From the NCBI RefSeq assembly GCF_003234965.1, contig NZ_QKVK01000012.1:1-64000 (forward strand): DNA of 64,000 nt, written 5' to 3'. Position 1 is the stretch's first letter. Every line of letters begins with the position of its first letter. Of this stretch, positions 11,640 through 44,263 are shown piece by piece. The DNA is from Aestuariivirga litoralis (lineage in GTDB: Bacteria > Pseudomonadota > Alphaproteobacteria > Rhizobiales > Aestuariivirgaceae). The position numbers were made by a program, and so were the translations under genes. The notes under the pieces are model-generated. The model had not been told where the DNA came from. It saw nothing but the letters and a program-made list of their open reading frames with translations, and did not search any database.

Positions 11640-12809
11640 ATGAACATCCATGAGTACCAGGCCAAGGAAGTGCTCCGCGGCTTCGGCGTGACGACCGGCA
11701 AGGGCATTCCCGCCTTCACCGTCGATGAAGCCGTGAAGGCCGCGCAGACGCTGGGCGGCCCCGTCTGGGTCGTGAAGTCGCAGATCCACGCCGGCGGCCG
11801 CGGCAAGGGCGGCGGCGTCAAGGTCGTGAAGTCGGTGGACGAGGTGAAGGCCGAGGCCACGCGCATGCTCGGCATGACGCTGGTGACCCACCAGACCGGC
11901 CCCGAGGGCAAGGTGGTGCAGCGCCTCTACATCGAGGAAGGCACCGCGATCGCCCGCGAACTCTATCTCTCGATCCTGGTCGACCGCGAAACCTCGCGCG
12001 TCGCCTTCATCGCCTCGACCGAGGGCGGCATGGACATCGAGAAGGTGGCCCATGACACGCCGGAGAAGATCATCACCGTGCAGGTCGATCCCGCCGCGGG
12101 CTATGCGCCCTATGTCGGCCGCCGCATCGCGTCCGCCCTCAAGCTCAAGGGCGACCAGGTGAAGCAGTGCGTCAAGATGATCGGCCAGCTCTACAAGGCC
12201 TTCGTCGACAAGGACATGAGCCTGCTCGAGATCAACCCGCTCGTCGTCACCAAGGACGGCAACCTGATCTGCCTCGACGCCAAGATCAACTTCGACTCGA
12301 ACGCGCTCGACCGGCACCCCGAGATCAAGGAACTCCGCGACCTGACGGAAGAAGACCCGAAGGAAATCGAAGCTTCCAAGTATGACCTGTCCTATGTGGC
12401 GCTCGATGGTTCGATCGGCTGCATGGTGAATGGCGCCGGCCTCGCCATGGCGACGATGGACATCATCAAGCTCTATGGCGCCGAGCCTGCCAACTTCCTC
12501 GACGTCGGCGGCGGCGCTTCGAAGGAAAAGGTCGCGGCGGCCTTCAAGATCATCACCGCCGACCCGAAGGTGAAGGGCATCCTCGTCAACATCTTCGGCG
12601 GCATCATGAAGTGTGACGTGATCGCCGAGGGCGTCATCGCCGCGGTGAAGGAGGTGGGCCTCAAGGTTCCTCTCGTCGTCCGCCTCGAGGGCACCAACGT
12701 GGACCTCGGCAAGAAGATCATCCGTGAGTCCGGCCTCAACGTCATCCCCGCGGACGACCTCGATGATGCCGCATCCAAGATCGTCAAAGCTGTGAAGGAA
12801 GCGGCCTGA
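11640..12809 (+). CDS. sucC: Succinyl-CoA synthetase beta subunit
   Basis: A 389-residue ATP-grasp subunit of succinyl-CoA ligase, which makes succinate and a nucleoside triphosphate in the TCA cycle. It begins [12 protein letters not shown]; the glycine-rich [10 protein letters not shown] loop is near 50-60 and [10 protein letters not shown], contacting CoA/phosphate, is near 320. AGGA lies upstream of the start. Its stop overlaps the sucD start by one base (TGATG), giving stoichiometric, coupled translation of the two subunits. Confidence 0.97.
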
Positions 12810-13684
12810 TGTCCATTCTCGTCAACAAGAACACCAAGGTCATCTGCCAGGGCATCACCGGCAACAACGGCACCTTCCACACCGAGCAGGCCATTGCCTA
12901 TGGCACGCAGATGGTTGCGGGTGTGACACCGGGCAAGGGCGGCACCAAGCACATCGGGCTTCCCGTCTTCGACACCGTCTGGGACGCGAAGCAGGCCACG
13001 GGTGCGGACGCCTCCGTGATCTACGTGCCGCCGCCCTTCGCGGCGGACGCGATCCTCGAGGCCATCGACGCCGAGATCCCGCTCATCGTCTGCATCACCG
13101 AAGGCATTCCGGTGATGGACATGGTGAAGGTCAAGCGCGCGCTGTCGGGCTCGAAGTCGCGCCTCATCGGGCCGAACTGCCCTGGCGTCCTGACGCCCAA
13201 CGAGTGCAAGATCGGCATCATGCCGGGCAACATCTTCAAGAAGGGCTCGGTGGGCATCGTCTCGCGCTCCGGCACGCTCACCTATGAAGCGGTGTTCCAG
13301 ACCACGCAGGAAGGCCTCGGCCAGACGACCGCGGTGGGCATCGGCGGCGACCCGGTCAAGGGCACCGAGTTCATCGACATGCTGGAAATGTTCCTCGCCG
13401 ACGACGCGACGGAATCGATCATCATGATCGGCGAGATCGGCGGCTCGGCCGAGGAGGACGCGGCGGAGTTCATTGCGAAGTCGAAGAAGAAGAAGCCGAT
13501 GGCCGGCTTCATCGCCGGCCGCACCGCCCCTCCCGGCCGCCGCATGGGCCATGCCGGCGCCATCATCTCCGGCGGCAAGGGCGGGGCCGAGTCCAAGATC
13601 GACGCCATGAAGCGCGCCGGCATCGCCGTCGCGGATTCGCCCGCTTTGCTGGGCAAGACGCTGGTCAAGAAGCTGAAGGGCTGA
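12809..13684 (+). CDS. sucD: Succinyl-CoA synthetase alpha subunit
   Basis: A 291-residue CoA-binding subunit. The phosphorylated histidine is H248 in [23 protein letters not shown] near the N-terminus and [10 protein letters not shown] at 121-130 belong to the CoA-binding domain. Translationally coupled to sucC. A family-1 repeat fills the 213-bp gap before sucA. Confidence 0.97.
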
Positions 13685-29339: not shown

Positions 29340-30740
29340 TCACCTCGTCCCATAGGCCTTCCTCCGCCACGCTGCCTGGTATTCCGCAAGGCCTGCGACT
29401 TCCGCCGCCGTCACCTCGGCCATCCGGATGGCGATCGTCGGCAGCGTCCCGTCCTCGATCATGGCCAGTGCCGCCGCACCCGCCGTGGTGCCGTCGCGCA
29501 GGGTGGAGGCCTTCACCCTCTGTGCCGGCCTCAGCTGCGCCAGCACGGCGAGCAGCACCGGGTTCTGCGAGAATGGCCCATCGACGATGATGTCGTCCTT
29601 CGAGGTGATGGCATCAAGCTGCTCCGACACCATCAGCGCGCAATAAAGCGCGGCGAGCGAGGCGCGCTCCTCAGCGCTTTCCGCCGCCGGCCCCGTCACA
29701 TGTCCCTTGCCGAGCGAGTCGGGCACCGGCCCGCTGGTCATGGTGAAGGACGGCACGGCGCAAGTCCCGCGTGCCACCAGCGCCGCAACACAGGCAAGGC
29801 TTGCCGCCTCCGCCGGGGCGCCATTGGCGACCGCCGCGAATTCCATGCCGCCGAAGAAGCGGCTGCAGCAGACATTGCGGCCCAGCACGTCGGTATTGGT
29901 GTTGGTGTCGCGTGCGGGGTCCAGCACGTCGACGCTGGTCGAGGGATCGAAGCTGATGCTCCAGGTTCCGGTGGACACCAGCGTGAAGCGGTCAAGCCCC
30001 GCGCAGACATAGCGCATGAAATTGGCCGTCGAGTCATGCACGCCGCCGAGCACGCGGCCCTCGCCGCGAAAGCTTGGGCCCCGGAACTCCTCCTTCAGCG
30101 TGCCGATCGTCTCCCATGCCCTGGCGCGCGGCGCATAGAGCCGGTCCCAGCCCAGCTGCTTCGCGGTACTGGACGGCGCCTGCGCACGGATGTCGAGCAG
30201 ATGCGTCTGGCAGGCCATCGAGGAAATCTCGGTCACCGCGACACCGCTGAGGCGAAAGCCGACATACTGGATCCACGGCAGCAGCGTCTTCACCCTGGCA
30301 AACGCATCCGGCCAGGCCCGCTGCTGCCAGTAAAGCTGCAGCCCGTGGGTCAGCGCGATGGGCAGCAGCGGGCACAGCGCCTCGTCGAAGCCCGGCATGA
30401 TCTTCTCGTATTCGGCCACGATCTCCGCCGGGGGCTCGCTCGTGTAGTCCATCACGGGGAGCGCCAGATCGCCCTGCGCATCGAGGCAGGCCATGGCCGC
30501 GCCATGCGCCGTGGGCACGATCGCGTCGATGGGCAGCATGGCGTCGAGCTCCGGCAGGGCGCTCCGGCACAGCGCCACCATCGGCTCCGGGTCGATGTGC
30601 CTGTAGGGCGGTGCGGGCAGGTGCAGGCTTGGCGCCTTGCGCTCGGCCAGCAACTCGCCATGCTTTGAAAACAGCGCGATCTTGGTGTTGGTATAACCCA
30701 CGTCCACCACCGCGATGCCGCGCAACCCGTCCTGCCCCAT
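29340..30740 (-). CDS. FGGY-family carbohydrate kinase
   Basis: A 466-residue sugar kinase of the FGGY family. The N-terminal phosphate loop is VVDVGYTNTKIALF, GVHDSTANF and STGTWSIS form the mid-chain substrate/ATP region, and DGPFSQNPVLLAVLA the C-terminal adenosine region. Overall pattern is nearest to L-fuculose/L-rhamnulose kinases, but the substrate is inferred. The start at 30740 has GGAACGG upstream. It is divergent from the aldolase operon at 30874, whose product would be a matching class II aldolase, so the three genes may form one catabolic unit. Confidence 0.82.
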   Translation of the reverse strand: MGQDGLRGIAVVDVGYTNTKIALFSKHGELLAERKAPSLHLPAPPYRHIDPEPMVALCRSALPELDAMLPIDAIVPTAHGAAMACLDAQGDLALPVMDYTSEPPAEIVAEYEKIMPGFDEALCPLLPIALTHGLQLYWQQRAWPDAFARVKTLLPWIQYVGFRLSGVAVTEISSMACQTHLLDIRAQAPSSTAKQLGWDRLYAPRARAWETIGTLKEEFRGPSFRGEGRVLGGVHDSTANFMRYVCAGLDRFTLVSTGTWSISFDPSTSVDVLDPARDTNTNTDVLGRNVCCSRFFGGMEFAAVANGAPAEAASLACVAALVARGTCAVPSFTMTSGPVPDSLGKGHVTGPAAESAEERASLAALYCALMVSEQLDAITSKDDIIVDGPFSQNPVLLAVLAQLRPAQRVKASTLRDGTTAGAAALAMIEDGTLPTIAIRMAEVTAAEVAGLAEYQAAWRRKAYGTR

Positions 30741-30873
30741 GCCGCCCGTTCCAATTCTTTTGCGGCACTCTCTCGCATTCGCTGCATGGGCGTCAATCAC
30801 CTCCGGCTCTTGTCCGCCACGGCGGGCCCGGTCTATAGCCGCTCACCTGACCTTCAATCCGGGAACCCCTCAC

Positions 30874-31632
30874 ATGGCCAAGCTCAAGTACCTCGATCTC
30901 CGCGAAGCAGTGATCGACACCTGCCTCAGGATGAACGAGGAGGGGATCAACCAGGGCACCTCCGGCAATGTGAGCGTGCGCACCCCCGAGGGCTTCCTGA
31001 TCACCGCGTCCGGAATCCCCTATGCCCGGATGAAGCCGGAGCACATCGTCGAGATGGACCTCGACGGCGGCTATGTCGGCGAATACCTGCCCTCCACCGA
31101 ATGGCGCATGCACCTCGACATCTTCAAGCACCGGGCGGAAGCCGGCGCCATCGTCCACACCCATTCGATCTACGCGACCGCGCTGGCCTGCCTGAGGAAG
31201 GACATTCCGCCCTTCCACTACATGATCGGCATTGCCGGCGGCACCGACATCCGCTGCTCGGACTATGCCGAGTTCGGCACGCCGGAGCTTTCCGCCGCCA
31301 TGCTCAAGGCGCTGAAGGACCGCTCCGCCTGCCTTCTCGGCAACCATGGCCAGATCGCCTTCGGCCCCAATCTCGAAAAGGCCCTGTGGCGCGCCGGCGA
31401 GGTGGAGACCATCGCCCACCAGTACTGGGCCGCCCTCCAGGTCGGCAAGCCGGTGATCCTCAGGTCGAACCAGATGAATACCGTGCTGGCGCGCATGAAG
31501 ACCTATGGTAAGCAGGCAGGCGAGTTCAAGAAGACCGACGCACCCTCGGTCACCGGTCTGGTCCGCCGCGACGTGCCGAAGAAGGCCGCGCCGAAAACCA
31601 GCGGAGCAAAGAAGGGCACGAAGAAGAAGTGA
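30874..31632 (+). CDS. Class II aldolase/adducin-family protein (fuculose-phosphate aldolase-like)
   Basis: A 252-residue zinc aldolase of the L-fuculose/L-ribulose phosphate group. Metal-binding histidines are in VHTHSIYATALA, with a further one in GNHGQIAFG; NQGTSGNVSVR forms the substrate phosphate loop. It ends in an unusual lysine-rich tail (KKAAPKTSGAKKGTKKK) absent from the core family. The start at 30874 (MAKLKYLDLREAV) is chosen as the first residues of the domain. Its stop overlaps the GTG start of the next gene. Confidence 0.85.
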   Translation: MAKLKYLDLREAVIDTCLRMNEEGINQGTSGNVSVRTPEGFLITASGIPYARMKPEHIVEMDLDGGYVGEYLPSTEWRMHLDIFKHRAEAGAIVHTHSIYATALACLRKDIPPFHYMIGIAGGTDIRCSDYAEFGTPELSAAMLKALKDRSACLLGNHGQIAFGPNLEKALWRAGEVETIAHQYWAALQVGKPVILRSNQMNTVLARMKTYGKQAGEFKKTDAPSVTGLVRRDVPKKAAPKTSGAKKGTKKK

Positions 31633-32951
31633 TCGCAGGCGTCTCCCCGCTCGTTTCCGAACTGAAGGCCCGCGCCGAGGCGGGGAGAACCGTCACCATC
31701 GGCCTCGCCGGCTGCGGCCAGATGGGCACCGACATCATGGTGCAGCTGAACCGCATGCCGGGGCTCCGCCTCGGTGCGGTGGCCGAGATGCGCCCGCCCC
31801 AGGCCCGCGCCGCCGCCGCCATGGCGGGCTTTCCGGAGGACCGCACGGTCTATGCCGAAACGCCCGCCGCCATCGATGCGGCAATCGAGTCGGGCCACAT
31901 CGCCATCACGTCTGATCCTGCCGTGCTGGCCAGGTCCGGCCGCATCGACGTGGTGATCGACGCCACCGGCAATCCCAACACCGGCACGCAGTTCGCGCTC
32001 GAATCCATCGCCAGCGGCAAGCACGTCGTCATGCTCAATGTCGAGGCCGACATCACCATCGGCCGCCACCTGCACGAGGCGGCGAAGCGCGCCGGCGTCG
32101 TCTATACCGGTGCCGCGGGAGACGAGCCCGCCGCCACGCTGGAGCTGATCGGCTTCGCCCAGTCGATCGGGCTCGAAGTGGTCTGTGCCGGCAAGGGCAA
32201 GAACAATCCGCTGAAATGGGACGCGGTGCCCGCCGACTACGAGGCGGAGGCCAGGGCCCGCAACATGAATGCCCGCATGCTGGTCGAGTTCGTCGACGGC
32301 TCCAAGACCATGGTGGAGATGGTGGCCATCGCCAACTGCACCGGCCTCGTGCCCGACGTGCCCGGCATGCACGGCCCCGCCGCCACGCGTGAGGAACTGG
32401 CCTCGGTGCTGATCCCGAAGGAACATGGCGGCGTGCTGTCGAAGAAGGGCTGTGTCGACTATTCCATCGGCAAGGGCGTTGCCCCCGGCGTCTTCTGCAT
32501 CGTCACCACCGATCACCCGCGCCTGCAGGAGCGCCTGATCGACCTCAAGGTCGGCAAGGGCCCCTATTTCGCGCTGACGCGCCCCTATCACCTCACCAGC
32601 ATGGAGGTGCCGCTCTCCGCCGCCCGCGCCGTGCTCCACGGCCAGGCCGACATGGTGCCGCTCGAACAGCCCGTGGCCGAATGCGTGACGGTGGCCAAGC
32701 GTGACCTGGCGGTGGGCGAGATCCTCGGCCGCATCGGCGAAACGGACTATCGCGCCTGGGCCATGACCCATGCGGAGGCCCGCAATGCCAATGCCGTGCC
32801 GCTGGGCCTGGCGCAGGGGGCGAAGGTGCTGAAGCCCATCAAGGCCGGCGACCGCCTCACCTACGACAATTGCGCACCCGACGAGAGCCTGCTGGTCACC
32901 CAGATCCGCCGCCGCATGGACCAGTCCGACACCCGTCTCCACGCCCTCTGA
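31629..32951 (+). CDS. NAD(P)-dependent oxidoreductase with C-terminal SAF domain
   Basis: 440 residues. The N-terminal Rossmann domain (GLAGCGQMGTD, 25-35) is homoserine-dehydrogenase-like; DVVIDATGNPNTG and VVMLNVEADITIG follow. The last ~70 residues (about 360-425) look like an SAF domain, as seen in related sugar-acid or tetronate catabolic oxidoreductases. Start is GTG overlapping the aldolase stop (GTGA). With the aldolase and kinase it suggests breakdown of a rare deoxy sugar or sugar acid. Precise activity unknown. Confidence 0.75.
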   Translation: MIAGVSPLVSELKARAEAGRTVTIGLAGCGQMGTDIMVQLNRMPGLRLGAVAEMRPPQARAAAAMAGFPEDRTVYAETPAAIDAAIESGHIAITSDPAVLARSGRIDVVIDATGNPNTGTQFALESIASGKHVVMLNVEADITIGRHLHEAAKRAGVVYTGAAGDEPAATLELIGFAQSIGLEVVCAGKGKNNPLKWDAVPADYEAEARARNMNARMLVEFVDGSKTMVEMVAIANCTGLVPDVPGMHGPAATREELASVLIPKEHGGVLSKKGCVDYSIGKGVAPGVFCIVTTDHPRLQERLIDLKVGKGPYFALTRPYHLTSMEVPLSAARAVLHGQADMVPLEQPVAECVTVAKRDLAVGEILGRIGETDYRAWAMTHAEARNANAVPLGLAQGAKVLKPIKAGDRLTYDNCAPDESLLVTQIRRRMDQSDTRLHAL

Positions 32952-33026: not shown

Positions 33027-34556
33027 GTGCGCAGACAGAGAAGTCCCTACGCCTTCGGGTCACGCCGCCACAAGGTCGAGACCGGCCTCAACACCTACAC
33101 CCAGGACGAGCTCGCCCGCCTGACGGAGCGCTTTGCCGGAACCCTCATGCTGTCCGGCCAGCCGGGCTACAACGACGCCCGCATGGGCTTCATGCACACC
33201 TACCAGAGCTATCCGCAGGTCATCGCCAACTGCGTGTCGCAGAGCGACGTGGTGGCGGCACTGCATTTCGCAAGGCAGGCCCGGCTTTCGGTGGTGTGCC
33301 GCTCGGGCGGGCATTCGACGGCCGGCTTCTCGGTCAACGACCAGCTCGTCATCGACACCAGCGGCGTCAACCACGTGCTGATCGACCGCGAGGCCCAGAC
33401 GGCCCGGGTTGGGCCCGGCACCTGCTTCCGCAAGTTCAACCTGATGCTGGACGAGGCCGGCCTGCACGTGCCGGGCGGCGGCTGCGAGACCGTTTGCGTG
33501 GCGGGTTACATGCAGGGCGGCGGCTATGGCTTCACCTCCCGCCTCTTCGGCATGAACTGCGACAATGTCGAGGCGGTGACCATGGTGCTGGCCGATGGCC
33601 GCGTGGTGCGCGCGAGGGCCGGCGACCAGCACCACGAGGATCTCTACTGGGCGGTGCGCGGCGGCACCGGCAACCAGTTCGGCGTTCTGGTCGAAATCGA
33701 ATACCGGTTGCGGCCGCTGGACCGGCTCTTCGGCTTCGGCCTGCGCTTCCCGCTCGCCAATGAGCGGGAGGTGGCCACCGCCTGCCGGGCGCTCGCCACC
33801 CTGCAGCAGCACTATTGCGATGGCGGCGCACCGAAGATCGGACTGCAGGCGCTGATGATGTATCTGCCGACCGCCGAACACCCGGACGGCCAGGTCCCCG
33901 GCCTCAACATCCGCGGCCTCTATGACGGCTCCATGGCCGAGGCCCGGGCGGCGCTCGGCCCCCTGCTCGCGCATGTCGAGAACGAGGCCGCGCAGGTCGA
34001 GATCTGGAAGAGCGGGCACTACCTCCACCTCAACGAGATCCTGCTGCAGACCGTGCACCCGCCCGGCAACGACATGCCCAGCGTGTCGATGAACACCAAG
34101 CCGCTGGCCGACGGCCGCATCATCGCCGAGCACCACGGGCCGGAGCGCTGGCACGACATCGTCAGCCATTTCCTCAAGGCGCCGGACAAGACCACCTTCA
34201 TCGCCCTCGAATGCTATGGCGGCGCCATCAACGAGAAGGCGCCGGACTTCAACGCCTTCGTCCACCGCCGCGCCAGCCTCAACATGTTTTCCTGGAGCTT
34301 CTGGACCTTCGAGGCCAACCGTGACCATGCCGTTGCCTGGCTCGAGGAGTTCGGCCACATCGCCGGCGCCATGGGCAACGGCGCGCGCTACCAGAACTAT
34401 CCGCGCCGCGGCAACGCCGGCTTCCGCGAGCAGTATTTCGGCGCCAACCTGGCGCGGCTGATGGCCATCAAGATGAAATACGACCCGCACAATCTCTTCG
34501 ACTTTGAACAGGGCCTCCTGCACCAGGATGCCCCGCCGCAGGAGGCCTCCCCATGA
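33027..34556 (+). CDS. Berberine-bridge-type FAD-linked oxidoreductase
   Basis: A 509-residue PCMH/berberine-bridge-family flavoenzyme. H96 in RSGGHS is the histidine that carries covalent FAD in this family. The GGGC (C153) preceding YMQGGGYG suits a second cysteinyl FAD link, so FAD is probably bicovalent. The C-terminal YDPHNLFDFEQ motif is typical. GTG start with GGAGG eight bases upstream. It opens the quinoprotein operon and overlaps the LodA-like gene by four bases (ATGA). Such enzymes oxidise sugars, amines or alkaloids; it may feed or modify the quinoprotein's substrate or have an independent role. Confidence 0.8.
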   Translation: MRRQRSPYAFGSRRHKVETGLNTYTQDELARLTERFAGTLMLSGQPGYNDARMGFMHTYQSYPQVIANCVSQSDVVAALHFARQARLSVVCRSGGHSTAGFSVNDQLVIDTSGVNHVLIDREAQTARVGPGTCFRKFNLMLDEAGLHVPGGGCETVCVAGYMQGGGYGFTSRLFGMNCDNVEAVTMVLADGRVVRARAGDQHHEDLYWAVRGGTGNQFGVLVEIEYRLRPLDRLFGFGLRFPLANEREVATACRALATLQQHYCDGGAPKIGLQALMMYLPTAEHPDGQVPGLNIRGLYDGSMAEARAALGPLLAHVENEAAQVEIWKSGHYLHLNEILLQTVHPPGNDMPSVSMNTKPLADGRIIAEHHGPERWHDIVSHFLKAPDKTTFIALECYGGAINEKAPDFNAFVHRRASLNMFSWSFWTFEANRDHAVAWLEEFGHIAGAMGNGARYQNYPRRGNAGFREQYFGANLARLMAIKMKYDPHNLFDFEQGLLHQDAPPQEASP

Positions 34557-36412
34557 GCGATCCGCAAAAGCCCTGCGCCTGCAGCACCGCGGCCGACCAG
34601 CCCTGCGCGCCATGGTGCGGCCGCCCGCCCGGCCAGGGCAGGGTGGTCGGCCTCTACTTCGACCCGCCCATGGCCATTGCCCGGGTCGGCTCGTCGCCAG
34701 AGCCGATGGACGCCTATGACTGGACCTTCGACAAGAACCCGCATCGCGGTGTCCAGACCAAGATCCGCGCCACCCGGTCGCTGCAACTCGAATCCGGGCG
34801 CGGCGATGGCCACTGGCCGCACCGCCTGGTCATCAAGGAACCGGGTGAAATCGCCTTCAAGGACGCCAGGGGAAGGATCCGCCCCGTTGCTCCCTTCTTC
34901 GAACTCTGGGCCAGGGTCCAGGACGATGACGGCAGCATCCTCGCCGTGCCGGTGACGCGGGCCTTCCTCGAGGCCCGCAAGGCCAGCCTGCGTGACCTGG
35001 TGTTCACCGTCGATGCGGCGAACCGCAAGGCGCAGTCGCGCACCAAGCTCGCCTCCTGCGCCGCCGTCGCCCATGTCGTCTTCGCCGGGGACTCCTTCAA
35101 GCGCCACAGCCTCGATGCCATCAGCCCGCGCAGCTATGGCGAGGTGCCGCTGGTGCGCCCCGATGCGCCGCTGCCGCTGGGCCATGTGCAGACCTTCCTG
35201 CCCAACGGCGAGGGCTGGAGCTGCCACACGCGGCTCGACCAGGTGCGGCTGCGCTTCACGCCGGGCTCCGGCGCCACCTTCGGCCCGCCCGATGCCACCA
35301 CCGCCATGGCCTCGCCGCGCCCGCCGGGCGACTTCGAGCCCGCACTCACCGAATATGGCCGCAACCATGCGATGACACGGCCGGAAAACCGCATCCTCAC
35401 GCCGGGCACCGCATGGTCCGGCTTCAACTTCCGCACCGGCAACACGCCCAAGTGGCCCACACCGCAGGACAGCTATGACGGCTCGCGCGAAGGGGCGGGC
35501 GGCAGCTGGGGCACCATCGACAACACCTGCGACCTGATCATCCAGGCGGCCCTCACCATCGACGGGCGGGTGCTGCGGGCCAAGGCGCGCTCCTTCGCCG
35601 GGCCGCCGGACTTCGCCCCCGACCGGCGGCCGATGTATTCGATCCGCGACGAACTCGACGACCGCGAACTGCCGCCGCCCGAGCCCCACCCCGAGACGAC
35701 GCCGGAAGAGATCCTCGACCTGTTCCGCCGCATCTTCGAGACGGCGAGCCTCGTCAACCTCGACCAGCGCCGCTCCTGGGCGCTGGCCGGCAATGCCGGC
35801 ATTCTCGGCGCTGCCGGGCCGGACGAGCCGGACTGGGACCATGGCCTGTCGCCCCGCCTCGGCCCCAAGACCATGCGCGCCGACGATGCGCCCTATGCCG
35901 AACTGACGCCCGACTATACGCCCGGCCAGGACGACACGCGGGTTTCCACCTCCGGGCCCAACGACCGGCTGCCCTATACCCAGGTGGTGCAGCAGGTACA
36001 TGCCCGCATGGCCGAGAGCATGGTGCTGCGCGAGTTCCTGGCGCGGCGGCCGGACCGGGTGCGGCGCATCGTGCGCCCGCCCTTCGCGCGGGTGGCGGAC
36101 CTTCCGGCCCGCGTCGGCGTGCAGAAGCCCGCCGCCGTGCCGGTGGGCAAGTGGGACAAGCCGGAGTCCGAGGGCGGCACGCCCCGGCGCGCCAGCCCCG
36201 ACGACCCGCCGCGCTACCGCGACCCGCGCAACGTCATGGACATCACCTATGACATGCGCATGCCGCCCTTCATGCGCCATTCGATGGGCGTGCCGCTCAG
36301 CATCACAAGGCGCCACTACGACCTGCTGATGGCCTATCTCGACAAGCTCGAAACCGACAAGAGCTGGCGCGACGCCGCGCTCGTCGCCGAGGGGGGCCCG
36401 CACCATGGCTGA
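34553..36412 (+). CDS. LodA-like quinoprotein, N-terminal half (split protein, alpha part)
   Basis: 619 residues with the N-terminal architecture of LodA/GoxA-family cysteine tryptophylquinone oxidases. Near residue 33 LYFDPPMAIARVGSSPEP corresponds to the family opening. Around 325-375 GGSWGTIDNTCDLII and SFAGPPDFAPDR, followed by IRDELDDRE, correspond to the LodA segment that ends in a PPDFAPG-like turn. The characteristic C-terminal half (the part that bears the quinone) is missing here and is found in the next gene. It overlaps its neighbours by 4 and 8 bases, so the parts are made together. This assignment is my own motif reading and needs a profile search. Confidence 0.6.
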   Translation: MSDPQKPCACSTAADQPCAPWCGRPPGQGRVVGLYFDPPMAIARVGSSPEPMDAYDWTFDKNPHRGVQTKIRATRSLQLESGRGDGHWPHRLVIKEPGEIAFKDARGRIRPVAPFFELWARVQDDDGSILAVPVTRAFLEARKASLRDLVFTVDAANRKAQSRTKLASCAAVAHVVFAGDSFKRHSLDAISPRSYGEVPLVRPDAPLPLGHVQTFLPNGEGWSCHTRLDQVRLRFTPGSGATFGPPDATTAMASPRPPGDFEPALTEYGRNHAMTRPENRILTPGTAWSGFNFRTGNTPKWPTPQDSYDGSREGAGGSWGTIDNTCDLIIQAALTIDGRVLRAKARSFAGPPDFAPDRRPMYSIRDELDDRELPPPEPHPETTPEEILDLFRRIFETASLVNLDQRRSWALAGNAGILGAAGPDEPDWDHGLSPRLGPKTMRADDAPYAELTPDYTPGQDDTRVSTSGPNDRLPYTQVVQQVHARMAESMVLREFLARRPDRVRRIVRPPFARVADLPARVGVQKPAAVPVGKWDKPESEGGTPRRASPDDPPRYRDPRNVMDITYDMRMPPFMRHSMGVPLSITRRHYDLLMAYLDKLETDKSWRDAALVAEGGPHHG

Positions 36413-38174
36413 CGCGCCGAAGAAGCTGAACCACGCGCCCGACCCGCGCTACCCGCAGCCGGTGCTCGGCAACCCCGCCTCCAGCCTGATGGAGTCGGGT
36501 GTGGGCAACTGCTACCCCGGCCTCGAATTCGACCTGCGCCAGCTCGACGTGCGCTTCTTCCCCGGCCTCACCTTCGAGTTCCTCGGCATCGAGCCGTCGG
36601 GGCCGGACGGCACGCAGGGCGTCCACCTCGTCAATGCCGAGGTCGAGAGCGATCCGATCTTCGCGCGGTCCGAGCTCTGGCTCGACGCGCTGAAGAAGCA
36701 GCTCAACGGTGCCGCCGGTGCCGCGCTGGGCAGCGGCACCTGGTACCTGCATTCGATCGAGCAGCATGGCCGGCGCATCGACCTCTATGACTTCAACGTC
36801 TTCCAGAATGCCACGCTGATGACGCCCTACGAGGGCGAAACCTGCTGGTGGGTGATCCGCGGCATCGAGGCGGATGCGGACCTGACCATCGCCCTCACCC
36901 AGCGCGATCCCACCGGCCAGCCCACCGGCAACCCGGTGGTGCTGCAGGGGAGGCGCCGGCGCTTCCTCGACGAGGACGGCGTGTTCCCGGACGTCTACCG
37001 TGCGGGCGAGCTCACCGCCTCGATGTGCAGCCCGTGGACGCATGACTTCCGCGACTGTGCCTGCCAGTACTGGGCCTCCAACCACCCGGACGTGGTGCTG
37101 GGCCCGGTGGTTGGCCCGGTGGGCGAGGCCGGCACCTCGCAGGACGATGCCGCGCAGGGCGTCACCTTCCTCGACTGGCTGCGCCGGCGCGGGCCGTGGC
37201 GCGATGTCTCCGCCCCCGCCACGCTGGAGCAGGCGCGGCCCGACGACTACGACCCCTTCGAGATCAACCTGCGCTGGGAGGAACTGTCCTTCGTGCTGCA
37301 GGGGGTGGAGACCGAGTCAAAGCCCGACACGCTGCCGATGGCGGGCCTGCGCCAGTCCTACCCCACCACGGCCAAGGCCATCGAGGATCTCGAGACCGAC
37401 CTTGCCCCGCGCGAATTCACCCTCGCCATGAGCTATCTCTACGCCCTCTTCTCGCTGCGCGCCCCCGACGAGCCGACGGCGGAGGAGCAGCGCCAGTGGC
37501 CGAGCCTGGTCGAGGACCTGCGCGCCGTGCGCCAGTTCATCCTGTCGGTGGCGCTGAGCGAGATGACCCACATGCGCTGGGTCAACCAGATCCTGTGGAC
37601 GCTGTCGGCCTCCGGCCATTACCCGCCGGGGCGGCGCTACCAGCCGGTCGTCCGCCCGCTGCCCGAAGCGATGCGCACCGGCGCCACCAGCCTGAGGCCT
37701 GCAAGCCTCGAGGTGCTGCAGCAGTTCGTCGACATCGAACGGCCCGCCAACCAGCTCGACCGCGAATATGCCGGCCTCGTCGATCACCTGCGGGAGACGC
37801 CCGGCGAATTCCCCGATGGCCTCTATGAACTCGCCGTGCGCATCGACAGCGACGGGCTGCAGCACTTCCAGAAGTTCCGCGACGCCGCCGCGATCCTGTC
37901 GCGCTACCACCTCAAGCCCGAACTCTTCCTGCGCCAGATGATCCTCGCCGGCCCCGGTGACGGGAGCGTGGCGCGGGCGCTGCAGCTCCTCGCCGGCATC
38001 GTCGCCGCCACGCACGACGGCTACCGCGCCGAGGCGGCGGATGACATGCCGGGCGCCGAGGCCAGCCTGTTGCGCGCGCGCGCCGCCATGCGCGACTTCC
38101 AGGCGGAGGCGGAGGCGCTGGCCCGCCTCGGCATCGGCATACCCTTCTTCGCCGCCTGGCCGGGAGACGCCTGA
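36405..38174 (+). CDS. LodA-like C-terminal domain fused to a ferritin-like domain
   Basis: 589 residues in two parts. About 20-240 resembles the LodA-family C-terminal domain: GVGNCYPGLEFD (C36) for the family's cysteine region and AGELTASMCSPWTHDFRDC (W211, C208, C218) for the tryptophan region. Candidate quinone-forming residues are C36 or a nearby cysteine and W211; I cannot fix the pair by eye. About 325-500 looks like a four-helix ferritin-like di-iron domain: E337, E386 and H389 (SEMTH), E445, H487. Fusion of the two is unusual. The gene overlaps the LodA-N gene (8 bp) and the radical SAM gene (1 bp). Confidence 0.6.
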   Translation: MADAPKKLNHAPDPRYPQPVLGNPASSLMESGVGNCYPGLEFDLRQLDVRFFPGLTFEFLGIEPSGPDGTQGVHLVNAEVESDPIFARSELWLDALKKQLNGAAGAALGSGTWYLHSIEQHGRRIDLYDFNVFQNATLMTPYEGETCWWVIRGIEADADLTIALTQRDPTGQPTGNPVVLQGRRRRFLDEDGVFPDVYRAGELTASMCSPWTHDFRDCACQYWASNHPDVVLGPVVGPVGEAGTSQDDAAQGVTFLDWLRRRGPWRDVSAPATLEQARPDDYDPFEINLRWEELSFVLQGVETESKPDTLPMAGLRQSYPTTAKAIEDLETDLAPREFTLAMSYLYALFSLRAPDEPTAEEQRQWPSLVEDLRAVRQFILSVALSEMTHMRWVNQILWTLSASGHYPPGRRYQPVVRPLPEAMRTGATSLRPASLEVLQQFVDIERPANQLDREYAGLVDHLRETPGEFPDGLYELAVRIDSDGLQHFQKFRDAAAILSRYHLKPELFLRQMILAGPGDGSVARALQLLAGIVAATHDGYRAEAADDMPGAEASLLRARAAMRDFQAEAEALARLGIGIPFFAAWPGDA

Positions 38175-39514
38175 TGGCCCGGGATGCCGGCCACCCGGCG
38201 CTGGAGGCGATGCAGGCCGCCCGGCCGCGCAGCCGGCACGCCCACCTCGCCGGCGACGTGGCGCTGGTCGCCGAGACGGCGGGCCTCTACCGCCTCGATG
38301 ACGCACAGGCCGCCACGCTGGCGGAAGGCCTGATGAGCGGCGATGCGTCCACCACGGCGGCGCTGCAGCGCCTCGGGCTCGACGCGCCGCCCAGCCTCCC
38401 GCCGGCGGCCGACCTCACCCGCCCGGTGCGCGCCCTGGCACTCACCGTGTCGCAGACCTGCAATCTCGCCTGCACCTATTGCTATGCCGCGGGCGGCAGC
38501 TTCGGCGGGCCGGATACCCGCATGGGCTGGGACGTGGCGCGCCGCGCCATCGACGCGCTCATCGCCGCCACGCCGCCCGGCGGCGCGGTCAAGATCGCCT
38601 TCATGGGTGGCGAACCGGCGATTGCGCGTGATCTCATCCGCCAGGCCGTGGACCATGCGCGCCGCAGGGCTGCCGCCCGCGCCGTGTCGGTCGGCTTCTC
38701 CACCACCACCAATGCGACGCTGGTCACGGCCGAGGATGCGGCGTTCCTCGCCGCACACCGCTTCGCCGTCACCGTCAGCATCGATGGCGCGCGGGCCGCC
38801 AATGACCGGCTGCGCCCGGCGCGCGGCGGGGCGGGCAGCTTCGACCGCGTGGCCCAGGGGGTCGCCCATCTGGCCCGCCATGCCGGCCGCATCGCGCTCT
38901 CGGCGCGGGTCACCGCCACGCCGCACAACCTCGACCTGGCGGAAACCATGACAGCGCTCGGGGCGATGGGCTTCACCTCCGTCGGCGTGTCGCCGATGAT
39001 CGCCTCGCCCACCGGCCAGGGCGCACTGGCGGCTGCCGACTTCGAAACCCTGCTGGCGCAGATGATGGCCTGCGGCGAAGCCTGGATGGCAGCCACCCTC
39101 GAGGGCGGCCACCATCCCTTCGCCAACCTCGCCACCGCGCTCACCGAACTGCATCGCGGCCAGCCGCGCAGCCATGGCTGCGGCGCGGCACGGGATTACC
39201 TGGCGCTGGACGCGGCCGGAAACTATTCCGCCTGCCACCGCTTCGTGAACGATGATGCCGGCGCCATGGGTTCGCTGGGCAACGGCATCGACCATGGCCG
39301 CCGCCGGTCCTTCCTTGCGGCGCGGGCGGTGGAAGCCCAGGCGCCCTGCGCCACGTGCTGGGCGCGGCGGCTCTGCGGTGGCGGCTGCCACCATGAGGTG
39401 ATCAACGCCGGCCGCCCCGCCTGCGACTATGTGCGCGGCTGGCTGCACTATGCCCTCACCGCCTATTCCCGCCTCGCCACGGCCCGGCCCGACTGGTTCG
39501 ACGGCCGTGCCTGA
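38174..39514 (+). CDS. Radical SAM/SPASM protein-modifying enzyme (QhpD/AnSME-like)
   Basis: 446 residues. The [4Fe-4S] cluster motif is C96, C100, C103 (CNLACTYCYA), with the GGEP motif at about 145-148. The C-terminal SPASM domain has C336, C354, C392, C395, C401, C405 and C417 for two auxiliary clusters, as in enzymes that crosslink or oxidise protein side chains. The first ~70 residues (HAHLAGDVALVAETAGLYRL) resemble a peptide-recognition (PqqD/RRE-like) element. Overlaps with both neighbours imply that its substrate is a cluster protein. QhpD makes thioether links in the quinohemoprotein amine dehydrogenase, which is the closest known analogy. Confidence 0.82.
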   Translation: MARDAGHPALEAMQAARPRSRHAHLAGDVALVAETAGLYRLDDAQAATLAEGLMSGDASTTAALQRLGLDAPPSLPPAADLTRPVRALALTVSQTCNLACTYCYAAGGSFGGPDTRMGWDVARRAIDALIAATPPGGAVKIAFMGGEPAIARDLIRQAVDHARRRAAARAVSVGFSTTTNATLVTAEDAAFLAAHRFAVTVSIDGARAANDRLRPARGGAGSFDRVAQGVAHLARHAGRIALSARVTATPHNLDLAETMTALGAMGFTSVGVSPMIASPTGQGALAAADFETLLAQMMACGEAWMAATLEGGHHPFANLATALTELHRGQPRSHGCGAARDYLALDAAGNYSACHRFVNDDAGAMGSLGNGIDHGRRRSFLAARAVEAQAPCATCWARRLCGGGCHHEVINAGRPACDYVRGWLHYALTAYSRLATARPDWFDGRA

Positions 39515-40883
39515 CACCGACGTTGCGGTGATCGGCGGCGGCCCGGCCGGCGTGGCGGCGGCCCTGTCGCTGCGCGAGGCCGGCCTTGCCGTCACACTCG
39601 TCGACCCCGGCCGCGGGCCCGTCCCGCGCATCGAGAGCCTTGCCGCCAACGGCATTGCCCTCGCCCGGTCCTGCGGCATGGCCGGTGCCCTCGATGCCGC
39701 GGGCCTGGGCCGGGCAGCGGCCATGCATCTCCACTGGCGCGGCAGGCCGGAGACGCGCCCCTTCGCGGCGGACGGCCCCCTCCTGCTGGACCGCAGCCGC
39801 TTCCATGCCGCGCTGCGCCGCCTGCTGCCGCCCGCAAGCCTGCGCGCGGCGCGCGTGACGGCCATCGCGGATGGAGGAGAGCACGTCCTCCTTGCCACCA
39901 GCACGGGCGCCATGGCCGCTCGCTTCGTCATCGATGCCCGCGGCCGCGCCGGGCTGAAGGCCCGTCCGCAGGGCACGCCCGTCATGGCGGCCCTGGCCTT
40001 CGGCGGCAGGGGGGCGCCGCCGTCCGGCCAGCCCGCCATGCTGCTCGAGGCCCTGGCCGAGGGCTGGCTCTGGGCCGCGCTGCTGCCGCATGGCGAGGTG
40101 AACGGGGCATTGTTCCTGCCCGCGGCAAGGCTCGCCGGCGGCACGGCGGCGACGCGTGCCCGGTGCCTTGCCGATCACCTTCGCCCCTCGGCGCTCGGCC
40201 TGCCGGCCGCGTTGCGGGCCGGGCCCGTGTCGGCTTCGATGCTGGTGGCGGTGGCGGATCCCTTTCTCTCGCCCCGGGTGCTGCGGGTCGGCGATGCCGC
40301 CCTCGCCAATGATCCGCTGGCCTCGCACGGCATTGTCCATGCCCTGCGCAGCGGGGTTCAGGCTGCCGCCGCGGCGGCGACACTGCTTGATCCGGCGGGC
40401 GATGCCGGCGCCGCGCGGAGCTTCATCCGCGACCGTCACCGGATGGCCGCCAGCTCCGCCCGCGATGCCACGCGCCGCTCGCTCGCCGATCAGGCACGCT
40501 TCGCCACGGGCTTCTGGTCCGCCATGGCCTCCGCTGAAGCCGCCGGTTCACCTGCGCCACCACCCTGGCCGGCCCTCACGCGGCCCCTCGCCCTGGCCCC
40601 CCTGGTACGCAGCGCCGTGCTGGAACATGGCCGCATAGCCTGGGCCGATGCGCTGTGGCTGCCCCGCAGTGCCCAGGCCGTGCCGCGGCTGGGGCCGTTT
40701 CCCGCTGGTGCGCTGGCGCGGCTCCTGTCACCACCCGCGGCGGTCACCGTGCTGTCTGAAAGGCTGGCGCGGATTGCCGGCGAAGGCCAGGCCCAGGCCA
40801 TCCTGCGCCTGCTGCTGGAGGAGGGAGCCCTGGGCAATGCCGCGCCGGCTCAGCCGGGGGTGACGGCAGGCAGCAATGCCTGA
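39507..40883 (+). CDS. LodB/QhpG-like FAD-dependent monooxygenase
   Basis: 458 residues of the tryptophan-halogenase/geranylgeranyl-reductase-like flavoprotein group. The Rossmann motif VAVIGGGPAGVAAALSLREAG lies at the N-terminus; LLLDRSRFHAALRRLLPP and RVGDAALANDPLASHGI follow as in that group. LodB and QhpG are the flavoproteins required to finish quinone cofactors in LodA- and QHNDH-type enzymes. GTG 39507, overlapping the radical SAM stop by eight bases, begins almost at the Rossmann fold; in-frame ATGs at 39429 and 39450 would add an unlikely tail inside the previous gene. Its last 34 bp overlap the opposite-strand cyclase gene. Confidence 0.72.
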   Translation: MPDTDVAVIGGGPAGVAAALSLREAGLAVTLVDPGRGPVPRIESLAANGIALARSCGMAGALDAAGLGRAAAMHLHWRGRPETRPFAADGPLLLDRSRFHAALRRLLPPASLRAARVTAIADGGEHVLLATSTGAMAARFVIDARGRAGLKARPQGTPVMAALAFGGRGAPPSGQPAMLLEALAEGWLWAALLPHGEVNGALFLPAARLAGGTAATRARCLADHLRPSALGLPAALRAGPVSASMLVAVADPFLSPRVLRVGDAALANDPLASHGIVHALRSGVQAAAAAATLLDPAGDAGAARSFIRDRHRMAASSARDATRRSLADQARFATGFWSAMASAEAAGSPAPPPWPALTRPLALAPLVRSAVLEHGRIAWADALWLPRSAQAVPRLGPFPAGALARLLSPPAAVTVLSERLARIAGEGQAQAILRLLLEEGALGNAAPAQPGVTAGSNA

Positions 40884-43800
40884 CAGCGCATCAGGTCCCA
40901 GCCTTCATCCTGCGAGGTGAGCTTGCGCCGCGCCGCCGCCAGCCGCGCCAGCGTCTCGGCCGAAGGATCGGCTTCGGCCATGTCGCAGGCAATGCGCAGC
41001 GCCAGCATGCGGGCCCCCATCTTCTCCGCAACCTGCAGGGCCGCCGCCAGCGCGTCGCGCGCTGCGCCCTCCTCGCCGCTGGCCCGCAGGATCTGGGCCC
41101 GCAGCCGCATCAGCTCGGGCTCGAGGAAGGTTTCCCTGGTGCGGTTCTGCACCGCCTCCGACTGCTGCAGGGCCGCGTCGGCCTCGGCCGGGCTGCCACT
41201 CCTGAGGTAGAGCTGCGCCAGCACGATGCCGATCACCTGCTGATAGTTGTAGGGGTTCATCCGCCGGAAATCGGCAAGCTTCTGGTTCAGCGCCGCATAT
41301 TCGGCCGCCGCGGGCGGTGCTTCCCGCATCAGCAGCTGCACGCCCATGACGAAGAAGCCGCCGGCCGAACGCATGACGCCGAGGTCGTGGCGCCGCCCCA
41401 GCTCGGCGCATTCCTGCGCCGCCGCAAGGCACTGCTGCCAGTCGCCGGCCACCAGCAGCAGCATCGAGCGGAAGATCAGCGCCTGCGCCAGCGAATGATG
41501 GTGGCGGATGCGGCGCGAATGGCTGACCGAGAATTCGCTGGCCGCCAGCCCGCCCACCGGGTCGCCCGAGATCCACAGCGCATAGGACAGGAAGGCCGAG
41601 CTGATCTCGGCATGATCATAGCCATGGCTGTGGGCCAGCGGCAGGTGTTGCGCCTCGTCATAGCTGTCGAGTGCCTCCTGCAGGGCAAGGGCGGCTTCCG
41701 CCAGCGCGCCGGTATGCAGCGCCACCACGCCCATGCCGCGCCGCCCGATCATGCGGAAGGTCCGGTCCTGCGCCTGCTCCGCCTTGGCATGCAGCAAGCC
41801 TGCCCACTTGCCGGCGGCGGCATATTCGGCCCGCACCAGGGCGTGGGTGTAGAGGCCGGTCAGGGCGATCAGCTCGCTCCGCGTCTCGCGCAGCTTCTGC
41901 GCCAGCTCAAGAACCTCGCGGCCCAGCCGCCCCGCCTCTTCCGAGGCAATGCCCAGCCGCGCCCGGCTGATCGATGACTGCGCGATCAGCACCCGCAGCC
42001 GCAGCGGATCGGTTTTCTCCCCCTCCCCCATCCGCTCGATCGACATCTCCGCCTGGCGCAGGAAATGCGTGGCTTCCATCAGGGCCGAACGCTGCAGCGC
42101 CTGCTCGCCCGCGGCCACCGCCAGCGGCGCCGCGCTGGCGTGGTCGCCACCCTCATGGGCATGCCAGGCAAGGTGCCCCGGGCGCTGGCGGGCGAGGTCG
42201 GCATGCGATCTGGTCAGTGCCGCGAAGGCACTGCGGTGCAGGCCCTCGCGGGCTGACTTCACCAGCCGCTCATAGGCAACCTCGCGGTAGAGGCTGTGGC
42301 TGAAGCGCACGCTGGCCGCGGCACTGCCGCCGCGGCGCTCGATGATGCGCGCCCGCGCCAGTTCCGCCAGGGCCGGGCCAAGGTCCGCCGCCGTCATCCC
42401 CAGCGTTGCGGCCAGCACGCGCTCCTCGGTGGGCTCGTCGAACACCGACAGGGCGGCGGTCACCTTGCGGCCCGATGGCAATGCGTCGAGCCGCGCCGAG
42501 ATGCTTTCGTAGATCGAATCCGGAACCTCGAACTCCTGTCCGGGCTGCGCCACCGTCCAGTCATGGGCCCAGCGCGCCAGCGCCTCCAGCATCAGCGGGT
42601 TGCCGGCACTGCGCGTGACGATCGCCTCGTTGATGGCCTCGGGCAGGTCGCGCCCCGCCAGGTGATGCGCCAGCACCCGCCGCGCCGCATCCTCGGTGAC
42701 GGGCGACAGCGGCACCTGCAGCGGCCCGCTCTCGGCACGCCACACCGGGTCCTCGGCCTCGCGTGAGGTGGCCAGCAGCATCACCGGCGTCTCGCAGGCA
42801 GTGTCGGCGCAGGCGGCCAGAAGTTCACGCGTCGTGGCATCGGCCCAGTGCACGTCCTCCACCACCACAAGGAGGGCGGCGGCCTCGCTCTGCATCAGGA
42901 AGCGGGCGAGGGTGGAGAGCAGCAGGCGGCGGTCGAGCTGCGTGGCGGTCACGCCGCCGGGCACCACGCCGCCAAGCCCCATCAGCACCGCGACCGCGCT
43001 GCGCTCGGCCGGCGTTGCCCAGGCGAACAACCGCTCCAGCTGCTCGAAGCGCACCTTCACCGCGCTGTCCGCCGCGGTGCCCAGCAGCGTGTCCAGAAGG
43101 TCGATCACCGGGCGCAGCGGCACGTTTGCGGAGAGCGCCATGCAGGACAGCCGCTTCACCTGGGCGCCGGCGCCGCGGAGCTCTGCTGCGAACTGCGCCA
43201 CCAGCGTCGACTTGCCGATGCCCGCCTCGCCCGACAGCAGCACCATGGCGGGCTGCGGCGGCCGCGCCGCGCGCCAGGCTTCGGCAAGCCGCCCGCGTTC
43301 CGCCTCATGTGCACTGGGAATGGCGGGGTCGATGCTGCGCGGTGGGCCGGGGGGCACGCCCTGCGGCAGGGCCAGCGCCACGGGCACCTTCTGGCCAAAG
43401 CCCTTCAGCGCCGCCTCCGGAAGCGCGTCGAAGGCGAATGCCGCGGCGGCCAGCGCGCGCGTCGCCTCGTCGACCACCACGCCGCCGGGCGGCGCCGTGG
43501 CCTGCAGCCGGGCGGCACGGTTGATCACCGGCCCCACCATCTGCGGCTCGCCGCCGGCATAATCCGGGCCGAAGCCGACGATGGCCTTGCCGCTGGCAAT
43601 CCCCACGCGCGCCTCGAGGTCGATCGTCTCGCCGCTGGCCAGGCGGTGCTGAAGCCCGCGCAGCCTTGCGAGCACGGCATGGGCGGCGCCGATGGCGCGC
43701 TCGGCACTTGCGGTCTGTGCCGTGGGAAAGCCGAACAGCATCACCACCCCGTCGCCCTGCACCGAGGCGATGAAGCCGCCATGCTGCCGGGCGGCGTCAC

Positions 43801-44143
43801 GCGCCGCCGCATGGTAGCGCTGGAGCAGGCCACGCATGTCGTCGGGGTCGAGCCGCTGGGTGAGTTCGGTATAGCCGACAAGGTCGCTGAACAGCACGGT
43901 GATGCGGCGGAACTCCGGCTCGGGCAGCGCCGTGCCGCTCTCGCGGTCGGCGGCGCTGCGCCCCGCCTTGAGGCGCTCCAGCAGCTTCTTGCGTTGTCCC
44001 AGCGTCAGGCCCAGATCGCGCAGGTCGCCATCCTCCAGCGACCACAGGAGGGTGGCGTCAACGTCCTCGGCAGCGAAACGCGGCGCCAGTTCTCCCAAGC
44101 CGACAGACTCGAGAACCGTCCGCACCTCCTCGTCTGGCCCCAC
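40850..44143 (-). CDS. SAM domain-class III nucleotide cyclase-NTPase-TPR signalling protein
   Basis: 1097 residues. In order: a sterile-alpha-motif-like domain (about 5-60, LESVGLGELAPRFAAEDV), a class III cyclase catalytic domain (about 75-260) with metal aspartates D87 (FSDLVGYT) and D131 (QGDGVVMLFG), a STAND/AAA-type NTPase with Walker A GEAGIGKS at 305-312, and a long helical C-terminal region resembling TPR repeats. Such proteins couple an unknown cue to cyclic nucleotide synthesis. GTG 44143 is chosen because GGAG sits eight bases before it; a TTG at 44209 is the only longer option. Convergent with and overlapping the quinoprotein operon. Confidence 0.83.
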   Translation of the reverse strand: MGPDEEVRTVLESVGLGELAPRFAAEDVDATLLWSLEDGDLRDLGLTLGQRKKLLERLKAGRSAADRESGTALPEPEFRRITVLFSDLVGYTELTQRLDPDDMRGLLQRYHAAARDAARQHGGFIASVQGDGVVMLFGFPTAQTASAERAIGAAHAVLARLRGLQHRLASGETIDLEARVGIASGKAIVGFGPDYAGGEPQMVGPVINRAARLQATAPPGGVVVDEATRALAAAAFAFDALPEAALKGFGQKVPVALALPQGVPPGPPRSIDPAIPSAHEAERGRLAEAWRAARPPQPAMVLLSGEAGIGKSTLVAQFAAELRGAGAQVKRLSCMALSANVPLRPVIDLLDTLLGTAADSAVKVRFEQLERLFAWATPAERSAVAVLMGLGGVVPGGVTATQLDRRLLLSTLARFLMQSEAAALLVVVEDVHWADATTRELLAACADTACETPVMLLATSREAEDPVWRAESGPLQVPLSPVTEDAARRVLAHHLAGRDLPEAINEAIVTRSAGNPLMLEALARWAHDWTVAQPGQEFEVPDSIYESISARLDALPSGRKVTAALSVFDEPTEERVLAATLGMTAADLGPALAELARARIIERRGGSAAASVRFSHSLYREVAYERLVKSAREGLHRSAFAALTRSHADLARQRPGHLAWHAHEGGDHASAAPLAVAAGEQALQRSALMEATHFLRQAEMSIERMGEGEKTDPLRLRVLIAQSSISRARLGIASEEAGRLGREVLELAQKLRETRSELIALTGLYTHALVRAEYAAAGKWAGLLHAKAEQAQDRTFRMIGRRGMGVVALHTGALAEAALALQEALDSYDEAQHLPLAHSHGYDHAEISSAFLSYALWISGDPVGGLAASEFSVSHSRRIRHHHSLAQALIFRSMLLLVAGDWQQCLAAAQECAELGRRHDLGVMRSAGGFFVMGVQLLMREAPPAAAEYAALNQKLADFRRMNPYNYQQVIGIVLAQLYLRSGSPAEADAALQQSEAVQNRTRETFLEPELMRLRAQILRASGEEGAARDALAAALQVAEKMGARMLALRIACDMAEADPSAETLARLAAARRKLTSQDEGWDLMRCQALLPAVTPG

Positions 44144-44263
44144 CCGACCAACTCCGTTTGTGCAACCAGAACGGCAGATTAGCCGGATTGCCGCCGAAGG
44201 GAAGGACAATGGCTGTCATGACGCAACGTCATTTTTACCTGCATGCTGCAGCGCAATACATTG

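Follow-up and report, generated by a model that had tools for sequence, protein, structure and literature searches.

We analyzed a 64,000-nucleotide stretch of the Aestuariivirga litoralis genome (contig NZ_QKVK01000012.1, positions 1 to 64,000; hereafter the window) containing a tight run of plus-strand genes for a flavin adenine dinucleotide (FAD)-linked oxidoreductase, LodN, LodC-fer, a radical S-adenosylmethionine (SAM) enzyme, and a flavin monooxygenase. The product of this operon is probably an oxidase with two subunits, a LodA-type architecture, and a cysteine tryptophylquinone (CTQ) cofactor; it would be matured in the manner of quinohemoprotein amine dehydrogenase (QHNDH), and its di-iron domain probably acts on the peroxide or imine formed at the CTQ site. 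The evidence consists of sequence, gene order, homology, and residue patterns. LodN (34553..36412, 619 residues) is the putative N-terminal or scaffold subunit, assigned by hhalign and by a structural match to LodA/GoxA. LodC-fer (36405..38174, 589 residues; hereafter LodC), whose gene overlaps that of LodN, is the putative catalytic subunit with a predicted CTQ site and a C-terminal ferritin-like domain. The genes that follow encode a QhpD-like radical SAM/SPASM enzyme (38174..39514), predicted to make Cys-Asp/Glu thioethers on LodC, and a QhpG-class flavin monooxygenase (39507..40883), a predicted Trp hydroxylase whose GTG start at 39507 is a proposal from the sequence and is approximate.

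Predicted CTQ site of LodC

Canonical LodA sequences were aligned with the LodA chain 3weu. In this alignment, C516 and D512 are the Cys and Asp of the motif PWQADFFNC, and W581 is the second Trp of YWWP. These residue numbers were counted by hand from the printed alignment positions and agree with the CTQ residues C516 and W581 given in the excerpt of PMC4417212 used here. The LodC motif equivalent to the PWQADFFNC region reads CSPWTHDFRDCACQYWASNHPD. LodA C516 aligned with C218, W581 with W223, and D512 with D214, so a CTQ is expected between C218 and W223. Judged from this alignment, the conserved Asp, Cys, and Trp of the LodA CTQ site are present in LodC as D214, C218, and W223, and all three were found in 34/34 copies of the radical-SAM-linked type. 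The earlier note on this DNA had pointed to GVGNCYPGLE (C36). An assignment of C36 as the cofactor Cys, together with W211 (SMCSPW) as the cofactor Trp, was rejected; the LodA numbering gives C218 and W223, and C36 is a Cys in 29/33 relatives and is replaced in 4/33.

We also compared LodC with QhpC, in which the crosslinks are Cys7-Glu16, Cys27-Asp33, and Cys41-Asp49 and the CTQ is Cys37-Trp43 (PMC8172795, excerpt). Three QhpC sequences from QHNDH loci show the order C-x5-D-x3-C-x3-C-x-W-x5-D, and LodC shows C208-x5-D214-x3-C218-x-C220-x2-W223-x5-D229 (37026..37091, plus strand; placed by the LodA numbering and the comparison with QhpC). The C208-D214 spacing is that of Cys27-Asp33, and the W223-D229 spacing is that of Trp43-Asp49. 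Both extra LodC cysteines, C208 and C220, fall at QhpC donor positions, and thioethers are predicted for C208-D214 and C220-D229. A different pairing, C208-D217, was rejected because position 217 is non-acidic in L063/L076 and L071 (L numbers denote loci), whereas D214 is invariant in the 34 copies. The PGLE41 segment of LodC corresponds to the PGWE16 segment of QhpC, and C36-Y-PG-L-E41 (36510..36527, plus strand) is the candidate counterpart, probably optional, of the Cys7...PGWE16 crosslink site. A pattern written from the QhpC crosslinks and allowing both spacings matched only LodC-type and QhpC frames (87 partly overlapping sequences) and had no match in 20 shuffles of 1,335,168 residues. 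A leader-like motif, P-x-N-x-x-A, precedes the PGxE segment in 25/33 radical-SAM-type copies, in 1/11 canonical copies scored, and in 3 QhpC; the window LodC is without the exact motif, which is taken as a hint only.

Extra cysteines and the radical SAM gene

C208 and C220 were present in 34/34 radical-SAM-type copies and in 0/16 ordinary LodA copies. In every one of the 34, a Cys lies three residues before the motif Trp (C208), another lies two residues after the CTQ Cys (C220), and W223 and D229 occupy positions +5 and +11 from the CTQ Cys. Trp at +5 and Asp at +11 also occur in two of the 16 ordinary copies (L077 and L078). The 16 comprise 14 loci plus second copies in L037 and L076; L050, which has no CTQ region, is outside them, and L074 is in no count. 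By tblastn, the radical SAM gene was detected in 31/34 Cys-type loci, distributed over Pseudomonadota, Cyanobacteriota, and Actinomycetota; the remaining three (L005, L009, and L010) end in LodC or ≤0.7 kb after it. The same search found the gene in 0/15 ordinary LodA loci, two of which lie on contigs of 4.4 and 6.1 kb. Alignments A1 and A2 hold 12/14 sequences (without L005 and L010), A3 holds 9/13 canonical loci (without L046, L048, L050, and L055), and A5 holds 12/20 fused-type LodC.

Two further observations concern the ordinary copies. L077 and L078, which have neither extra Cys and no radical SAM gene, are possible intermediates. Three genomes have, several kb or less from a radical-SAM-type cassette, another LodA-type gene that is of the ordinary kind (L037, from 17056; L076, from about 2600 down; L068, 1-394).

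Predicted maturation enzymes

The window flavoprotein passed the QhpG model NF049967 (269.7 bits; cut-off, 240), as did the flavoproteins of L066, L070, and L071, and scored far below the cut-offs of 400 with the GoxB and LodB models (90.5 and 54.3 bits). QhpG puts both oxygens into the Trp, according to the excerpted text of PMC7876137. The window radical SAM protein, which contains CX3CX2C at 96-103 and a later set of cysteines, scored 296.2 bits with TIGR03906 (QhpD; cut-off, 453) and 257.3 with PapB. TIGR03906 was the best model in 5/5 radical SAM proteins tested, with the PapB thioether maturase second and all scores below the cut-offs. In a tree of this type and QhpD only (34 rows; fragments L058 and L074 left out), 30 proteins of this type split from 4 QhpD with support of 100/100. 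No second QhpD-like gene scores above 25 bits in the host genome; therefore, the operon enzyme would not be serving a QHNDH elsewhere. The flavoproteins of L066, L067, L068, and L069 are annotated as tryptophan 7-halogenase, and L066, the one tested, passes the QhpG model.

The split LodA-like protein and its ferritin-like domain

Comparison of LodN by hhalign gave probabilities of 96.5 with canonical LodA and 99.6 with single-chain radical-SAM-type LodA, and the LodN model matched LodA/GoxA structurally, with the LodA N-terminal fold. By these comparisons, gene 34553 is the N-terminal part of a LodA/GoxA-like quinoprotein. The split of the LodA-like protein is real: LodN and LodC are two genes in the window and in 13/13 orthologous loci. 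In seven more distant loci, the radical SAM gene sits between the LodN and LodC halves, and the radical-SAM-linked type also occurs as a single chain and as separate subunits with a stand-alone ferritin-like gene. No LodA_N match was found in the host genome.

The ferritin-like domain of LodC (PF12902, about residues 322-574; 37368..38126, plus strand) passed the Pfam cut-off (48.7 bits versus 22.3). Its predicted di-iron ligands are E337, E386, H389, E445, D483, and H487. All of these except D483 are kept in 34/35 rows, the remaining row being truncated, and position 483 is acidic in 21 rows and Gln in 13. Of the 34 Cys-type loci, 21 carry the ferritin-like partner as a fusion and 11 carry it as its own gene, as recovered with a profile built from 8 of these same proteins. 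VioB, an enzyme that acts on the imine formed by an amino acid oxidase, likewise contains PF12902; the VioB match (NCBIfam) was marginal (E 0.07).

The earlier note had described gene 34553 as LodA/GoxA-like in its N-terminal motifs, gene 36405 as the LodA C-terminal part followed by a ferritin-like domain, and the pair as a two-subunit relative with a di-iron domain on its C-terminal half. This architecture held up in the hhalign and structural matches, in the full ligand set of PF12902, and in the split shared by the 13 orthologous loci. The profile check proposed for both proteins gave a divided result, with the ferritin-like model above its cut-off and the Pfam models LodA_N and LodA_C below theirs. 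The interpretation likewise stood in part, since it had overlooked the radical SAM gene, the QhpG-class flavoprotein, and the QhpC-like cysteine pattern.

Ferritin-like domains also appear in other arrangements. A LodN-type gene in L039 (5977-7611, Nostoc sp. UHCC 0302 plasmid) has its own N-terminal PF12902 (136.6 bits), so that this cassette has two ferritin-like domains. Divergent ferritin-like genes of about 910 residues are found in L069 (3751-6498) and L070 (3872-6601), and that of L069 also matches YCF48/BNR repeats and an FlgD Ig-like domain.

Proposed mechanism and alternatives

From these data, we infer each chemical step, the sequence in which the steps occur, and what the di-iron domain does. 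In a LodA-like enzyme, LodN would be the scaffold half and LodC the catalytic half. LodC would be bound at its N-terminal region, in the cytoplasm, by the QhpD-like radical SAM enzyme, which would form the thioethers Cys208-Asp214 and Cys220-Asp229, and also Cys36-Glu41 where that Cys exists. The QhpG-class flavoprotein would then hydroxylate Trp223, which would couple with Cys218 to give the CTQ, and Asp214 would serve as acid/base in the active site. Once mature, the LodN/LodC pair would oxidize a primary amine or amino acid, yielding hydrogen peroxide and an imine. No CxxCH heme site was found in nine neighboring proteins checked, and oxygen is therefore the likely electron acceptor. The fused di-iron domain would work downstream of the CTQ site, probably on the peroxide or the imine, which is the weakest link of this explanation.

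Several results weigh against this explanation. The Pfam scores for LodA_N (15.6 bits; cut-off, 26.3) and LodA_C (16.5 bits; cut-off, 25) were below threshold, searches of PDB sequences, run with LodN and LodC both as single sequences and as profiles, yielded chance matches only and never LodA, and no structure matched the LodN model in Foldseek at E ≤ 0.001. The structure models of LodN and LodC were poor (mean predicted local distance difference test [pLDDT] scores of 52.1 and 64.8), and the catalytic segment of LodC had a pLDDT of <50, so it gives no geometric support for the predicted bonds. The hhalign comparison of QhpC with LodC was not significant (probability 0.3, E 0.22), though the same residues were aligned; QhpC against canonical LodA gave E 0.0019 over 17 columns only. 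The LodC segment had no match to PF08992 (QH-AmDH_gamma) up to E 10, and 3/3 QhpC match it. The radical SAM protein is under the QhpD equivalog cut-off, and the flavoproteins of L038, L039, and L041 are below the QhpG cut-off. Furthermore, L077 and L078 have the Asp at the 229 position without the cysteines, and the Cys pattern splits two clades in which many loci are close kin, so that 34 versus 16 copies are not 50 independent events.

The enzyme could instead be an ordinary LodA-type protein that is merely split, with the radical SAM enzyme acting on another substrate and C208 and C220 having a structural role in a disulfide or metal site. D214, C218, and the PGxE motif are indeed common to ordinary LodA, which needs no radical SAM enzyme. 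However, the radical SAM gene accompanies the Cys-type loci across three phyla and none of the ordinary loci, and both cysteines fall at QhpC donor positions, although no systematic search was made for a separate small precursor peptide; we consider this explanation improbable. It is also rather doubtful that the enzyme is a dehydrogenase passing electrons to another carrier, as in QHNDH, with the di-iron center or the neighboring FAD protein as acceptor. The QHNDH-like maturases and motif would fit such an enzyme, as would the presence of the FAD protein in 12/13 orthologous loci, but no CxxCH was found in the nine proteins, the FAD protein has no match in the six plasmid loci L036-L041, and LodA and GoxA are oxidases (PMC4417212, excerpt).

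The role of the di-iron domain was weighed separately. The earlier note had suggested that it may supply oxygen chemistry or iron for maturation, which here would mean the first hydroxylation of the CTQ Trp or iron supply to the radical SAM enzyme. The first hydroxyl of LodA/GoxA is thought to be autocatalytic (PMC7876137, excerpt), which leaves a gap for a dedicated enzyme; the chain that bears the Trp is also the one to which the domain is fused; and two ordinary LodA genes that lack a neighboring radical SAM gene (L056 and L057) have a ferritin-like gene beside them. On the other hand, QhpG itself inserts both oxygens, and an enzyme of its class is already encoded in the operon; a single-use maturase needs no permanent place in the enzyme; and the radical-SAM-type cassette of L071 has no ferritin-like gene in the 16 kb covered. 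A maturation role thus appears unlikely. We favor the post-oxidase role because PF12902 partners accompany LodA-type oxidases whether or not a radical SAM enzyme is present.

Neighboring genes and related loci

The gene order of the operon and the convergent gene beyond it is kept in 13 orthologous loci (named genomes), as far as the contigs extend. Matches were found for the FAD protein (12/13), LodN (13/13), the radical SAM protein (10/13), the flavoprotein (9/13), and the cyclase protein described below (7/13); the LodN of L005 is frameshifted, and the LodN match of L010 covers the last 60 residues only. The FAD-linked oxidoreductase (33027..34556, plus strand; FAD_binding_4 and BBE, Pfam 100.2 and 47.7 bits), whose stop overlaps the LodN start, appears to be accessory to this subfamily. 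Convergent to the operon lies a gene for a SAM-domain/nucleotide cyclase/AAA/TPR protein (40850..44209, minus strand; Pfam), a possible regulator that also adjoins the single-chain cassettes L042-L044. Upstream, at 29340-32951, are FGGY kinase, class II aldolase, and DRL-type oxidoreductase genes; these sugar-type genes have no match in the 13 orthologous loci and are outside the operon. A megablast search against E. coli genomes gave no match.

In an Azospirillum argentinense plasmid (L074, 6998-10504), a remnant consists of LodN and a shortened radical SAM gene followed directly by an IS3-family transposase, and no LodC was found there. C25-type cysteine peptidases lie near some cassettes (L041, L067, and L066, the last a weak match), and serine proteases lie near those of L041 and L067; the protease coordinates are 11809-13353 and 4912-5886 in L041, 2427-3950 and 1295-2257 in L067, and 3477-5045 in L066. 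QHNDH likewise requires a protease, QhpE.

Implications

A search confined to the open-licence literature (subscription papers and preprints being outside its scope), with most papers judged from their listing, gave no description of a radical-SAM-linked, split, or PF12902-fused LodA, in agreement with the earlier note, which knew of no described example; it also gave nothing on RebD with non-heme iron. In the excerpt of PMC7876137, the makers of tryptophylquinone cofactors are treated as divergent, convergently evolved strategies. The present operon may thus link two families of enzymes that are viewed as having been invented separately. We put forward tentatively, as a serious possibility rather than an expectation, that it represents a third CTQ enzyme class bridging LodA and QHNDH, in which a large LodA-type oxidase subunit would be crosslinked at QhpC-like sites by a radical SAM enzyme and completed by a QhpG-class enzyme, the two known CTQ families would share an ancestor instead of having arisen convergently, and the di-iron domain would act on the product of the quinone site, placing amine oxidation and a second oxidation in one complex. 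If true, the combination of a LodA-type enzyme, crosslink sites like those of QhpC, and makers like QhpD and QhpG would favor a shared origin of the two CTQ families, and subunits of 280-620 residues would be added to the known targets of thioether formation by radical SAM enzymes. The role of the thioethers, the source of the first Trp oxygen, and the purpose of the recurring ferritin-like partner would become testable, and flavoproteins named tryptophan 7-halogenase beside such genes could be re-annotated.

Comparison with known systems

The window enzyme has in common with LodA and GoxA, the CTQ-dependent L-lysine 6-oxidase and glycine oxidase, the N-terminal fold, the PGxE motif, and the PW..D...C motif with equivalents of D512, C516, and W581. 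LodA and GoxA are single polypeptides, whereas the window enzyme has two chains. C516 and W581 are 65 residues apart in LodA, whereas their equivalents are 5 apart in LodC, and the stretch from PGxE to PW is about 100 residues longer in LodC than in LodA/GoxA. The extra C208 and C220, the radical SAM maturase, and a partner flavoprotein of the QhpG class instead of the LodB/GoxB class further distinguish the window enzyme.

With QHNDH (QhpC, QhpD, and QhpG), it has in common the order and nearly equal spacing of the crosslink and CTQ residues, and its operon contains relatives of QhpD and QhpG. By contrast, QHNDH has a diheme alpha subunit, a feature without counterpart among the nine CxxCH-free neighbors. 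The CTQ segment lies in a 589-residue subunit with a LodA-type scaffold instead of in the ~9-kDa QhpC, and the PGxE-to-CTQ linker is 130-177 residues in LodC-type proteins where measured, compared with 11 in QhpC.

Fusions of LodA-like proteins with a catalase domain (pfam00199) or an iron-containing redox domain (pfam14518) are known, as is a fungal lodA with a neighboring PF12902 gene (PMC4417212, excerpt); the term radical SAM does not occur in the text of that paper. Like the window enzyme, these combine a LodA-type oxidase with a protein that handles iron or peroxide. However, in the pfam00199 and pfam14518 fusions the added domain is N-terminal on a single chain, and the fungal PF12902 is encoded by its own gene, whereas PF12902 in the window is C-terminal on one half. 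Compared with other PF12902 proteins, namely 3hl1 (Caulobacter CC_0557) and the C-terminal part of VioB as assigned by NCBIfam, the window domain differs in being fused to a quinoprotein half.

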